Assembly: GCA_945883755.1 (NCBI GenBank)
Contig: CAMCXX010000008.1
Span: 1 to 34,978 of the forward strand
Length of the DNA: 34,978 nt
Direction of reading: 5' to 3'
From: Bifidobacterium breve
Lineage (GTDB): Bacteria > Actinomycetota > Actinomycetes > Nanopelagicales > Nanopelagicaceae
Position numbers and translations under genes: made by a program. The number at the start of each line of letters is the position of its first letter. Within the stretch, counting starts at the first letter, position 1. Below, in pieces: positions 29,708-34,978 of the stretch. The notes beneath the pieces were generated by a model. The model was not told the DNA's origin. It saw only the letters and a list, made by a program, of their open reading frames with translations, and did no database searches.

Positions 29708-32296
29708 TTAGTGAGCTGCTAGATCCCAACTTTCACCAAATCCAATATTTACATCCAGTTTAACTTTAAGTTTAAATGCATTTGCCATCTGCTCTCGCAC
29801 AACCGTTTCCAGAATTTGTGCTTCATCTGGCATTACTTCAAAAATTAGCTCATCATGAACTTGCAGTAGTGGACGAGATTTTAAACTTTTCTCAAGTAAT
29901 TGCTGATTAATATTTAGCAAAGCAATTTTGATTATGTCAGCTGCTGAGCCTTGGATAGGTGCATTCAACGCTGCTCGTTCTGCAATCTCTCTGCGCTGGC
30001 GATTATCATGATTTAGATCTGGCAGATAACGACGTCGTCCAAGAATAGTTTCGGTGTAACCCTTCTGCCTTGCTTCGATTACAACTGTTTTTAAGTAATC
30101 GCGGATACCACCAAATCTTTCAAAGTATGTGCTCATTAGTTTTGAAGCTTGGGTTGGATCGATATCCAATGTTTGAGATAGACCAAATGAAGATAGGCCA
30201 TAGGCCAAGCCATATGACATCGCTTTAATAGTTCGACGCATTTCAGCATCAACTTCAGTGGGTTTAACCCCAAAAACTAAGGCACCAACAGTTGAATGTA
30301 GATCCTCTCCTGATTCAAATGCCTTAATTAATCCTTCATCATTTGAAAGGTGCGCCATTATGCGCATCTCAATTTGACTGTAATCAGCGGTTAATAACTG
30401 TGTATATGGATGTTGAGCGACAAAACATCCGCGAATGTGTCGACCTTCATCGGTACGAACTGGAATATTTTGTAAATTTGGTTCAGTTGATGAAAGTCTT
30501 CCCGTTGCCGCAACCGTTTGCTGAAAGGTGGTATGAATTCGACCATCATTAGCGGTAGCAGAGATCAAACCCTCAACAGTGGTTTGTAATTTGCTGCTCT
30601 CTCTTATTCGCATTAAATGTTGCAATATCGGGTGGTTTGTCTTGTTTAGTAACCAATTCAAACTTTCGGCATCGGTAGTAAAACCAGTTTTAATCTTCTT
30701 AGTTTTTGGAAGTTTTAACTCATCAAAGAGAACTACTTGAAGCTGTTTGGGAGAAGCGGCGTTGAACTCGTGCCCCGCCACCTTGTATGCAGCCTCTGTC
30801 TGCTCTTTCACTATCGCGGCAAAATCTAGTGACAACTCTTTAAGTTTTGCCGCATCAACTGCAATTCCAATCTTTTCCAGTTGCGCCAATGCGATCAGGG
30901 TTGGAATTTCGATTTTTTCATAAAGTTCAACCATCTCCTTATTACTTAACTCCGTAAATAAGATTTCATGCAAAGCGTAGATCCATCCGGCAGCTTTCGG
31001 TTGAAAAGATTCAAATAAGCCATCTTGATCAATCTGGATTCCAAGTAAACGTTGAGCCAAATCATTGATCTCTAGATTTCTACTTCCAGGATTATTTAAG
31101 TAAGCCAAAATCTCTACATCTGATTTCAAGCCATTTAAGTTAAACTGCTTAATGAGCCATTTCGCTCCATGCACAATCTTCTTAATCTTCGAATCATTAA
31201 TCCAGTCACCGATATCACTATCTGTTGCTTCGTAAATATTAAGTGGGTCAATTGCAATCGAATACCTAATCAAATTACCCTCAACAACCTCAATATGAAT
31301 AGACACTGGATTTTTTGTCGTGGCTACCTTGGTTGAAATTTCGGCTGAGGTACAAAGAGTTACTGCGGGTTCTAGCGCCCTAACAATTGGTGCTTCAACA
31401 CCTATTTGCGGAAGAACCTTTATGCGCTCCTTAAGCGCTTTGATCTCAAGTTCATCAAATATCTTATTTGTTGCATTTATATCAAAGCCTTGCCAGGTGA
31501 GCTCCTGAATTTGCACCTTGAGCTCTACATTACTTAGCAATTGTGTGAGTTCACGATTTAACTTAACTGAATCAATATTTTCACGCAATGCCTGGCCTAC
31601 CTTGCCAGTTATTTGATCGGCATGTGACAACAACTCTGTCAGCGATCCGTAATCAACAATCCATTTGGTAGCGGTTTTTTCACCTACGCCGGGAAGTGAA
31701 GGGAGGTTGTCACTTGGATCCCCGCGCAGGGCGGCAAAGTCTGCATACTGTGCAGCAGTAAGTCCATATTTTTCAAAGAGTGCATCTGGCGTCATTCGAA
31801 TCATCTCAGTAACGCCTTTTTTAGGGTATAGAACTGTAGTTTGTTGATTTACTAATTGAAATGCATCTCTATCCCCCGTACAGATTGAGACTTTAAAATC
31901 TTCAAGTTCGGCGCGCTTAGCAAAGGTTGCGATGATGTCATCCGCTTCAAATCCTTCAACTGCAAAGTATTTAATGCCAAAGGCGGTGATCAACTCATTT
32001 ATGTGACTGAGCTGGGATCGGAACTCATCAGGAGTGCTACTTCGCTGAGCTTTATACTCAGGAAATCTTTCGCTTCTAAATGTTTTTCGAGAAACATCCA
32101 AGGCAACCGCGATATGAGTCGGCCGCTCTTCCTTGAGTAAATTTATAATCATTGAGGCAAAGCCGTAAATTGCATTTGTTGGTTGTCCATTTGAACTACG
32201 AAAATTGTCGGCAGGTAAGGCATAAAATGCTCGGTAGGCCATTGAGTGGCCATCAATCAGCAGTAGATGTTGCTTCCTTATATCCCCCGAACTCAT
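29708..32296 (-). CDS. polA: DNA polymerase I
   Basis: Pol I fills repair gaps and removes RNA primers. The 862-residue protein has an intact 5' nuclease (LLLIDGHSMAYRAFYAL, EADDIIAT, CTGDRDAFQLV, GDPSDNLPSLPGVGEKTA). The middle 3'-5' exonuclease-like domain has lost its metal-binding residues: the DxE of motif I reads HIE and the motif II Asp is missing. The polymerase domain is complete, with motif A TADYSQIEMR, motif B RRTIKAMSYGLAYG and motif C VHDELIFEV near 813-823. Motif B has Tyr where Escherichia coli has Phe762, which is common in actinobacteria. No Shine-Dalgarno precedes the ATG. Confidence 0.96.
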   Translation of the reverse strand: MSSGDIRKQHLLLIDGHSMAYRAFYALPADNFRSSNGQPTNAIYGFASMIINLLKEERPTHIAVALDVSRKTFRSERFPEYKAQRSSTPDEFRSQLSHINELITAFGIKYFAVEGFEADDIIATFAKRAELEDFKVSICTGDRDAFQLVNQQTTVLYPKKGVTEMIRMTPDALFEKYGLTAAQYADFAALRGDPSDNLPSLPGVGEKTATKWIVDYGSLTELLSHADQITGKVGQALRENIDSVKLNRELTQLLSNVELKVQIQELTWQGFDINATNKIFDELEIKALKERIKVLPQIGVEAPIVRALEPAVTLCTSAEISTKVATTKNPVSIHIEVVEGNLIRYSIAIDPLNIYEATDSDIGDWINDSKIKKIVHGAKWLIKQFNLNGLKSDVEILAYLNNPGSRNLEINDLAQRLLGIQIDQDGLFESFQPKAAGWIYALHEILFTELSNKEMVELYEKIEIPTLIALAQLEKIGIAVDAAKLKELSLDFAAIVKEQTEAAYKVAGHEFNAASPKQLQVVLFDELKLPKTKKIKTGFTTDAESLNWLLNKTNHPILQHLMRIRESSKLQTTVEGLISATANDGRIHTTFQQTVAATGRLSSTEPNLQNIPVRTDEGRHIRGCFVAQHPYTQLLTADYSQIEMRIMAHLSNDEGLIKAFESGEDLHSTVGALVFGVKPTEVDAEMRRTIKAMSYGLAYGLSSFGLSQTLDIDPTQASKLMSTYFERFGGIRDYLKTVVIEARQKGYTETILGRRRYLPDLNHDNRQRREIAERAALNAPIQGSAADIIKIALLNINQQLLEKSLKSRPLLQVHDELIFEVMPDEAQILETVVREQMANAFKLKVKLDVNIGFGESWDLAAH

Positions 32297-32302
32297 ATTG
32301 GG

Positions 32303-32308
32303 ATCTTA
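32303..32308 (-). promoter_or_regulatory. possible leaderless -10 box of polA
   Basis: TAAGAT on the minus strand is followed by six bases and the polA ATG. There is no ribosome-binding site in between, so the mRNA may start at or next to the start codon. Confidence 0.4.
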
Positions 32309-32334
32309 ATTGCCAAAGATCATCATTGTCGGGA

Positions 32335-32340
32335 TAAACT
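32335..32340 (+). promoter_or_regulatory. possible leaderless -10 box of the thioesterase
   Basis: TAAACT ends seven bases before ATG 32348. TTGCCA lies 19 bases upstream of the box. No ribosome-binding site is present. Confidence 0.4.
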
Positions 32341-32347
32341 TCCCGCC

Positions 32348-32752
32348 ATGAGTGATTTCTTAGAAGTAATTAAGGCTCGCGGTAGTGGTGCCCTTGATAA
32401 AAAAATGGGAATTGAAATTCTCGAGGCATCCCCTAATCGGCTAGTAGGAAAAATGCCGGTTGAAGGAAATACGCAACCAATCGGATTACTTCATGGTGGC
32501 GCTAATGTAGTTCTTGCTGAATCTTTGGGATCGATCGGCACTCAATTACATGCTGGTCCTAATCGAAAAATTGTTGGCGTGGATATCAACGCCACCCACC
32601 ATAAATCAGCGACAGCTGGTTTTGTTACGGGAGTAGCCACAGCAATCTCTCTGGGAAAGACTATGTGCAGTTATGAGATTGTAATCAGTAATGATGCGGG
32701 TGAAAGAACCTGCACGGCGAGAATTACCTGTTTGATTCTTGCCGAAAGATAG
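32348..32752 (+). CDS. hotdog-fold thioesterase, YdiI/MenI-like
   Basis: This 134-residue protein is a PaaI-type acyl-CoA thioesterase. The segment PIGLLHGGANVVLAESLGS closely matches Escherichia coli YdiI (MenI), with His49 and the catalytic Glu58. VGVDINATHHKSA and the final ARITCLIL strand also fit. YdiI hydrolyses 1,4-dihydroxy-2-naphthoyl-CoA in menaquinone synthesis, but close relatives act on other acyl-CoAs, so the substrate is open. The frame is open from 32267, inside the divergent polA; the ATG at 32348 gives the normal N-terminus MSDFLEVIKARG. Divergence from polA is, as I recall, common in actinobacteria. Confidence 0.88.
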   Translation: MSDFLEVIKARGSGALDKKMGIEILEASPNRLVGKMPVEGNTQPIGLLHGGANVVLAESLGSIGTQLHAGPNRKIVGVDINATHHKSATAGFVTGVATAISLGKTMCSYEIVISNDAGERTCTARITCLILAER

Positions 32753-32859: not shown

Positions 32860-32864
32860 GGGAG
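32860..32864 (+). promoter_or_regulatory. ribosome-binding site that fixes the livH GTG start
   Basis: GGGAG in AAGGGAG lies eight bases before GTG 32873. The ATG at 32831 has no such site, so the GTG is preferred. The 120-bp gap before it has no promoter I would defend. Confidence 0.6.
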
Positions 32865-32872
32865 AGTTGCTT

Positions 32873-34186
32873 GTGATAAAAATTAGCTCCCTGGCTACGG
32901 TTTCATTCTCAAAAAAAGCCACCTACTCTCTTCTGTTTGTACTAATCATCAGTATCTTCTCCTTTGGAGTTTCGCTTAGCCCTGCAACTGCAGCGCAAGC
33001 TGATGAGGCTGTTCTATATGGAGTGGTCACAGATAAAGATGATTTGGCGTTACCTGGTATTGGAATTTCCGTAATTGGACCAGATGGATTTGAGGATCAG
33101 GTATTAACTGATGCTGAAGGTGCATGGCGGATTGTCACCAAAGCCACAGGAGCATATGAAATTTCCATAGATGAGAACTCACTACCTGAAGGTCAGGGAT
33201 TAACTAATCCAGAGCGGGCTACCGTAAAAGTATCGGTCTTTATGCTTGGTATAGATCTAGCAATTCAATTTCCAGTTGGTGTAGGAGTTGTGAAAGCTAC
33301 GCGATTAGAGCGAGCACCACAGCTTGCACTAGATGGTTTAATTCTTGGTTTGATTATCGCCTTAGCTGCTCTTGGTCTAAATTTGATTTTTGGTACAACT
33401 GGCCTGACAAACTTTGCACATGGTGAAATTTTGACCATGGGTGGCATTGTTACCTATTACCTAAGCTCAAATTTTGGTGTCCCTGTAATTATTGCGATAC
33501 CACTTGCGATCTTAATCACCGCTGCTGTAGCGGGATGGGCGCAGAATCAATACCTATGGAAACCGTTGCGAAAAAGAGGCACTGGTTTAATTGCAATGCT
33601 GGTAGTTTCAATTGGTTTTGCGATATTTGTTAGATACTTCTTCTTATTTATATTTGGTGGTGACACTGAGCAGTTACCAGAGTATGCCGGTCAAGCAGGT
33701 CTTGATTTGGGGTTAGTAAGCATTACGCCAAAATCCATCATCACTACATTTTTTGCCATCATATTTTTAATTTTAGCCACTCTTTGGTTGTTAAAGACAA
33801 AGATGGGTAAGGCTAGTCGCGCCGTTGCAGACAATCCTGCTTTAGCTTCTGCCTCCGGCATTGATGTAGAAAAGGTAATTAAATCGGTTTGGATTTTAGG
33901 AGCTGCCCTTGCTGCGTACGCCGGTATTATCTTGACAACAAATCAAGGTGTGAGCTTCTTAATGGGTCAGGACACCTTGTTATTGATATTCGCCGCTGTA
34001 ACCCTAGGAGGCTTGGGCACAGCAAATGGTGCATTAATTGGCTCACTGATAATTGGTTTGATGGTGCAACTATCGACACTATTTATACCAACTGAGCTGA
34101 AGTATGTGGGAGCGCTAGTTGTCTTAATTTTGATTCTGATCATCAGGCCTCAAGGAATTCTTGGCAAGAAAGACAGGATCGGATAA
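32873..34186 (+). CDS. livH: LivH-type permease with secreted N-terminal beta-sandwich domain
   Basis: This is a branched-chain amino-acid ABC permease (BPD_transp_2) of 437 residues from GTG 32873; typical LivH is near 300. The extra N-terminus has a basic start, a hydrophobic core (YSLLFVLIISIFSFGVSL) and an ATAA-Q cleavage-like site near residue 41. A segment at about 45-105 then reads VLYGVVTDKDDLALPGIGIS ... TDAEGAWRI ... GAYEISI, the pattern of carboxypeptidase-regulatory-like folds. The permease begins near 150 (GLILGLIIALAALGLNLIFG, then GLTNFAHGE) and contains the ATPase-contacting loop ASRAVADNPALASASGID. The membrane domain would place the extra domain outside the cell. It directly precedes livM. 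The transported substrate may be amino acids, amides or urea-like compounds. Confidence 0.88.
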   Translation: MIKISSLATVSFSKKATYSLLFVLIISIFSFGVSLSPATAAQADEAVLYGVVTDKDDLALPGIGISVIGPDGFEDQVLTDAEGAWRIVTKATGAYEISIDENSLPEGQGLTNPERATVKVSVFMLGIDLAIQFPVGVGVVKATRLERAPQLALDGLILGLIIALAALGLNLIFGTTGLTNFAHGEILTMGGIVTYYLSSNFGVPVIIAIPLAILITAAVAGWAQNQYLWKPLRKRGTGLIAMLVVSIGFAIFVRYFFLFIFGGDTEQLPEYAGQAGLDLGLVSITPKSIITTFFAIIFLILATLWLLKTKMGKASRAVADNPALASASGIDVEKVIKSVWILGAALAAYAGIILTTNQGVSFLMGQDTLLLIFAAVTLGGLGTANGALIGSLIIGLMVQLSTLFIPTELKYVGALVVLILILIIRPQGILGKKDRIG

Positions 34187-34978
34187 ATGGATTTCCTTTT
34201 CATAATTCAGCAAACCCTTGGCGCCACAATTGGTGTTAATACCATCATCTTCGCTTTAGCTGCGATCGGCCTAAATATGCACTTCGGTTACACCGGCTTA
34301 CTTAACTTCGGCCAAGCTGGATTTTTAGCGGTCGGCGCCTACTCAGTTGCAGTTTCAGTGGAGACCTACGGAGTTCCACTTTTCATCTCATTTTTGATTG
34401 GTATTTTTAATTCAGTGCTCTTTGCGTTGATCCTAGGTATTCCTACACTTCGCCTTCGAGCAGATTATCTAGCAATAGTCACAATTGCCGCGGCTGAAAT
34501 TATTCGAAAGGTTACCCGATCTGCCACATTTAATGATGTGCTCGGTGGCTCAGATGGAATTAGTGGAAAATTTGGTAAAGATTTCTTTGATTTTAATCCA
34601 TTTAAATCAGGGCTAGAAACATCAATCATTAGATTTAGCGCAAATGATCTCTGGGTAGTAATCGTTGGCTGGGTAATTGTTGCGATTATTACCTTCCTAA
34701 TGTGGGTGATGGTCAACTCCCCTTGGGGTCGGGTATTGAAGGCGATCCGTGAGGATGAGGATGCGGTCCGATCATTAGGAAAGAATGTGTATCTCTATAA
34801 GATGCAATCTTTAATAATTGGTGGCGTGATTGGCTCGATTGCCGGCTTTGTATATGCACTCTCGCGTCAATCTGTACAGCCAGATAATTACAGCACCGCT
34901 CTAACATTCTTCGCCTATACAGTTTTAATCCTCGGTGGTGCCGCCCGGGTCTTCTCACCAATTATTGGTGCAATGATC
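34187..34978 (+). CDS. livM: LivM-type permease (partial, runs off the window)
   Basis: An open frame begins at ATG 34187, immediately after the livH TAA stop (34184-34186), and continues for 264 codons to the window edge. The protein starts MDFLFIIQQTLGATIG and has the LivM signature GYTGLLNFGQAGFLAVGAYS, LGIPTLRLRADYLAIVTIA, LGGSDGI and the ATPase-contacting loop AIREDEDAVRSLGKN. About seven hydrophobic segments are visible. Together with livH it would form the membrane channel; the ATPases livG and livF and a binding protein are expected further along. The 3' end is outside the window. Confidence 0.93.
   Translation, partial: MDFLFIIQQTLGATIGVNTIIFALAAIGLNMHFGYTGLLNFGQAGFLAVGAYSVAVSVETYGVPLFISFLIGIFNSVLFALILGIPTLRLRADYLAIVTIAAAEIIRKVTRSATFNDVLGGSDGISGKFGKDFFDFNPFKSGLETSIIRFSANDLWVVIVGWVIVAIITFLMWVMVNSPWGRVLKAIREDEDAVRSLGKNVYLYKMQSLIIGGVIGSIAGFVYALSRQSVQPDNYSTALTFFAYTVLILGGAARVFSPIIGAMI

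Follow-up and report, generated by a model that had tools for sequence, protein, structure and literature searches.

A LivH-type permease with a predicted signal peptide and an outer-face beta-sandwich domain in Actinomycetota

The window, a stretch of 34,978 nucleotides that is the entire contig C8 of a draft genome (998 kb, 81% complete), contains a frame predicted to encode a LivH-type permease that opens, over ~143 residues, with a signal peptide followed by a single beta-sandwich domain. The fusion marks a LivH subfamily of Actinomycetota and is not an oddity of one genome. The computations support the anatomy, topology, fold, selection, single origin and operon of this gene; the role of the domain is one that we infer. 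The protein would be the LivH half of a LivHMGF importer, and the chances are about even that its domain serves as a structural cap or spacer, next to the face on which the binding protein LivK lands.

Anatomy, fold and topology of the fused permease

The SD-like sequence of livH occupies nt 32860-32866, ahead of the GTG at 32873, and the stop codon of the frame occupies nt 34184-34186. The positions of the gene, its predicted parts and its neighbors are listed in Table 1. The true start of the thioesterase gene probably lies downstream of nt 32267.

Table 1. Features of the livH region in the window
Feature	Positions	Strand	Description
polA	29708..32296	-	Left flank of the conserved locus
4HBT thioesterase gene	32267..32752	+	Just upstream of livH, part of the conserved locus
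livH-type permease gene	32873..34186	+	437 aa from a GTG start, which an SD-like gggagag precedes by 6 nt
Signal peptide region, residues 1-43	32873..33001	+	Predicted; h-region spanning about 18-31, with Ala-x-Ala near 41-43
Extracytoplasmic CarboxypepD_reg / transthyretin-like domain, residues 44-139	33002..33289	+	From profile and fold model
LivH transmembrane core, residues 144-437	33302..34183	+	TM1 predicted to begin on the outer side; from profile and model
livM-type permease partner	34187..34978	+	Directly after livH, cut by the contig end

The BPD_transp_2 profile (PF02653) matches residues 152-422 with an E value of 2.5e-41 and 142.1 bits against a cut-off of 26.8, and the match covers profile positions 2-269 of 269. 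The CarboxypepD_reg profile (PF13620) matches residues 48-102 with 24.7 bits; the window domain scores 24.7-28.7 bits, which is under the cut-off of 32.3. Among four relatives scanned singly, L066 (39.3 bits) and L099 (33.5) are above the cut-off and L125 (31.1) and L131 (28.1) are below it, and PF13620 reaches E ≤ 0.001 in all 67 aligned rows. The ~35 residues past the PF13620 match bear the LPxG and LFPxG motifs of the fused LivH subfamily. The initial annotation had described a LivH permease fused to an N-terminal domain, and the profile search matches both parts, the N-terminal domain below the cut-off.

AlphaFold2 predicts the full protein from the 67 rows with a mean pLDDT of 88.2 and a pTM of 0.74, giving a helix at residues 12-31, beta-sandwich strands at 46-137, and TM1 at 144-176. 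The domain alone is predicted with a pLDDT of 94.3 and a pTM of 0.84. Its nearest folds are TTR/prealbumin/CnaB-like, with Z scores of 9-11.6 over 74-99 residues and rmsd mostly 2-3 Å; they include the TIE protein, SdrD B, CnaB2, transthyretin, and carboxypeptidase D. A search of the PDB with the sequence profile of the domain returns NOMO2 and SdrD domains. The fold of residues 44-139 is shared with these CarboxypepD_reg/transthyretin-like domains, whose PF13620 profile the window domain matches below the cut-off, and here it is fused to an ABC permease. The confident folding of the isolated domain and its transthyretin-like matches agree with the earlier description of a carboxypeptidase-regulatory-like beta-sandwich. 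A disordered extension, which that description had named as the finding that would count against it, is ruled out by the AlphaFold2 models, in which the domain is ordered.

VIA-align pairs the core with BtuC, HmuU, and PsaC at Z scores of 13-16. Residues 140-426 of the model align with residues 35-324 of BtuC (1l7v_A; Z 15.7, 249 residues, 4.0 Å). The core fold is shared with these permeases, whereas BtuC has one more N-terminal helix and no outer domain. The N-terminus of BtuC lies inside. Because the alignment begins at BtuC residue 34-35, the first helix of BtuC is without a counterpart, and the first core helix of LivH would therefore start outside. Lys and Arg are found in the predicted inside loops (four in residues 230-239, three in 309-331, and four in 425-437), and none is present in residues 262-285. 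The BtuC alignment thus places the domain on the outer face of the membrane, as first proposed, and the Lys/Arg distribution agrees with it. The model gives the side of the membrane, not the position of the domain over the mouth. A sequence-level search of solved structures with the permease core found no match.

Start site and conservation of the extension

It is scarcely credible that translation begins near residues 140-145 and that the upstream part is an annotation artefact that is never made. The GTG at nt 33290 (residue 140) does have a GGAG ahead of it, yet at a spacing of only 2 nt. A start codon is found at the V140 column in 2 of the 67 aligned rows, and in at most 8 of 67 across columns 134-152, so that the internal start near residue 145 which the initial annotation had raised is absent as a conserved feature. 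Comparison of three congeneric copies gives dN/dS values of 0.036, 0.104, and 0.088 for residues 44-141, against 0.037, 0.027, and 0.052 for the core. The N-terminal domain is under purifying selection. These values (0.04-0.10 for the domain) and the rarity of start codons in columns 134-152 rule out an internal start as far as sequence evidence reaches, and the fold, the signal peptide and the AxA are kept in relatives.

A hydrophobic stretch precedes the domain across 121 LivH frames, with a lowest mean hydropathy of 1.83; the set includes the window protein, and 112 of the frames differ in their last 300 residues. AxA follows it in 115 of the 121 in a simple motif scan without a chance control. 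In the 67-row alignment A2, Ala occupies column 41 in 96% and column 43 in 94% of the rows. The sequence has the n-region, h-region, and AxA of a signal peptide, which would then be cleaved. The signal-like segment reported earlier is thus recovered in the window protein and in its relatives, as an h-region with AxA and as the predicted helix.

Locus, distribution and origin

The gene order of the Planktophila locus L064 is coaE, rpsA, an MFS gene, polA (-), thioesterase (+), livH, livM, livG, livF (+), livK (-), an ANTAR response regulator gene (-), and pyk (-), in which coaE, rpsA, polA, the MFS gene, and pyk are named from sequence only. Among 80 loci, LivM adjoins LivH in all 80, LivG and LivF are found in 76 each, and LivK in 69, some contigs ending early; in the window itself the contig end leaves only LivM of these in view. 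PolA is found in 57, the thioesterase in 51, the ANTAR gene in 26, and pyk in 13, many contigs being short. In many lineages livHMGF sits between polA-thioesterase and livK-ANTAR-pyk. Contamination or a chance fusion in one metagenome-assembled genome is ruled out, because the polA-thioesterase-livHMGF locus is common to Nanopelagicales relatives and two congeners carry the fusion at 93% identity.

The LivK of L064 is a Peripla_BP_6 binding protein whose nearest solved proteins are branched-chain amino acid binding proteins. A lipobox-like sequence is present in 35 of 69 LivK by a simple scan in which some false matches are likely, and 13 of the remainder are cut by contig ends. Branched-chain amino acids would be the substrate. 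The score against NF008011, the E. coli-type LivH equivalog, is 116 of 379 bits and does not reach the cut-off. The permease was also considered as UrtB (TIGR03409) and rejected, at 130.5 bits against a curated cut-off of 250.3.

In two Streptomyces-sized genomes (G319 and G298) the slot is flanked by polA-thioesterase and, at its far end, by the ANTAR gene, which pyk accompanies in G319. Between these flanks lies a domain-free LivKHMGF of 25-42% identity, with livK in front and on the same strand. Two transporter types thus share one chromosomal slot, which suggests in-place replacement of one by the other. In G486, pyk-ANTAR lies beside a domain-free LivKHMGF operon. In the loci L184, L185, and L186, from Streptomyces-sized genomes, the polA / ANTAR-pyk slot is taken by a domain-free LivKHMGF.

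At the family level the N-terminal part is present in 15 of 121 genomes. Within the genus the full-length form occurs in 3 of 25 genomes. The others have no match or just core-type ones, of at most 36% identity, and the fusion is absent from all four congeners whose genomes are near-complete (90% or more). Across the phylum the full model at E ≤ 1e-20 matches 210 of 396 genomes, mostly core-only, in a scan that scored the best four candidates per genome and may therefore miss copies. The domain-only model at E ≤ 1e-12 gives 67 matches in 61 of the 396 genomes: 65 on LivH, one (L182) on a LivH fragment at a contig break, and one (L183) on another membrane protein. The suggestion that similar fusions may exist in other actinobacterial LivH proteins is supported by these strong matches. 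Most of the weaker domain matches fall in large frames, whose lengths range from several hundred residues to several thousand. From the phylum scan 75 LivH rows, the strongest plus two fragments, were carried into the domain search, and a domain match is absent in eight: G412, G196, G299, and G340 are partial or at a contig edge, G155, G279, and G140 are of a domain-free sister type, and the eighth is G255. The named hosts among the best 80 matches include Nanopelagicales, Arthrobacter, Sinomonas, Nonomuraea, Planotetraspora, Glycomyces, Dactylosporangium, and Nocardioides.

Several observations accompany this survey. The frame that contains the related domain of L183 (G245:C1, near 3229154-3229423) is 436 aa long, begins with a zinc-ribbon-like part, and has a single hydrophobic segment; from its sequence it appears to be a second membrane context for the domain. 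Five loci, titled Bifidobacterium breve (L066, L067, and L072), Candidatus Fonsibacter lacus (L080), and Streptomycetaceae (L083), encode LivH 66-72% identical to that of the window. They are syntenic with Nanopelagicales loci, and their record names are probably wrong. A LivH paralogue in the genus (L028:1480-2589) has an extra hydrophobic segment ahead of its core, so LivH N-termini differ in more than one way.

The history of the fusion was read from a quick tree of 80 permease cores less than 80% identical, 58 fused and 22 unfused. The trait needs two changes on this tree; the mean after shuffling is 19.4, and none of 500 shuffles is as low. A 59-row clade with an SH-aLRT of 98 unites every fused row with a single unfused one, G255. 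The LivH frame of G255 (L144 / L187), ~336 aa, has the signal peptide, ~10 residues, and then the core, and its nesting has a support of 93. On this tree, which draws its fused rows from a search with a fused profile and has a midpoint root and long branches, the fusion seems to have been gained once and lost once. Inheritance after a single gain in an actinobacterial LivH lineage, often in place, is most likely. The LivH of G255 is a natural deletion: its beta-sandwich is gone, and the signal peptide, which remains, comes directly before the core; LivM, LivG, LivF, and a binding protein are also kept.

Role of the domain and related architectures

A Sec-type signal peptide would send the N-terminus of LivH out of the cell, where a single transthyretin-like domain of ~95 residues would fold on the outer face. 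A linker of about four residues would then lead into the first core helix, which would run from outside to inside. The likeliest role of the domain is that of a rigid structural cap or spacer at the outer mouth, on its LivH side; it would shape and stabilise the surface where the lipoprotein LivK lands, and would not be a fast co-evolving specificity partner. Other observations weigh against a cap. The domain is lost in G255 while the transporter parts stay. In Streptomyces-sized genomes the slot is used by a domain-free LivKHMGF, showing that such transporters can work without the domain. The domain also diverges fast, its mean column identity being 32% vs 50% for the whole protein, which would fit a dispensable appendage too.

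The initial annotation had proposed a docking role for LivK. A specific docking module, which would bind LivK and raise its local concentration or orient it, agrees with the predicted place of the domain on the outer face beside the landing site and with a LivK encoded alongside in 69 of 80 loci, but we consider it unlikely. Covariation was measured over 47 loci, with LivK taken as the minus-strand match nearest LivF and 33 of the 80 loci dropped as redundant LivH rows or for a missing LivK, LivM, or LivF. The partial distance correlation of the domain with LivK beyond the core, LivM, and LivF is -0.002 (permutation p 0.52), whereas 0.49 remains between LivM and LivK and 0.38 between the core and LivK. 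Conserved domain positions are mostly Gly, Pro, and aromatic positions of the fold. G255 loses the domain and keeps a binding protein. The docking proposal is not supported by these results, of which the absent distance signal is weak evidence. Since no residual domain-LivK covariation is left, a cap or spacer is preferred over specific docking, its chief rival.

The signal peptide and a fast-folding domain may instead have no role in transport and only ensure that LivH assembles and inserts with its N-terminus out. The core starting outside and the signal peptide kept where the domain is lost (L144) favor such a folding aid. However, a domain-free relative of the same core (L145) has ~14 residues of frame before the aligned core and presumably inserts, and the domain and the core are under purifying selection of similar strength; we regard this explanation as quite improbable. 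It is very improbable that the domain binds a surface protein, a glycan, or peptidoglycan, although domains of related fold in surface proteins may act in this way. The nearest folds include surface-protein domains, and a related domain occurs in the unrelated membrane-anchored protein of L183, but fold likeness shows no function, and the conserved positions in the 67-row alignment are mostly structural, with no ligand-like residue set among them.

Core-only LivH shares with the fused form the core, the LivM partner, the LivGF ATPases, and a Peripla_BP_6-type binding protein, and lacks the signal peptide and the beta-sandwich. The UrtB of Sinorhizobium meliloti (pSymA, CP090105.1, 537 aa; L195:1209-2822) resembles the window LivH in having a signal-peptide-like N-terminus, an extension, and a BPD_transp_2 core (245-519). 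Its extension of ~215 residues has a helical look and a weak HEAT_2 match below the cut-off, whereas that of LivH is a beta-sandwich, and this UrtB belongs to a urea operon. UrtB of Methylovirgula (~300 aa) and four actinobacterial UrtB above the cut-off (frames of 295-318 aa) are without such an extension. The rhizobial UrtB shows that the same core can follow a signal peptide and an outer extension whose fold is different. It is doubtful, though conceivable, that the LivH domain takes an active part in transport, as a docking or gating module of the permease that touches LivK or closes over the outer mouth. It would then give actinobacterial LivHMGF importers a mode of engaging the binding protein that core-only LivH lacks and that evolved independently of the rhizobial UrtB extension.

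The architecture is visible to domain databases; a literature search for LivH with an N-terminal extension or for a PF13620 and PF02653 fusion found no paper that describes it. The domain is an ordinary-looking accessory domain of putative role. A structure of the complex would be informative, as the LivH-type core is without a sequence-level match among solved structures. The broad actinobacterial fusion, its apparent single origin, the natural loss in G255, and the domain-free transporters in the same slot make the effect of the domain on transport directly testable.
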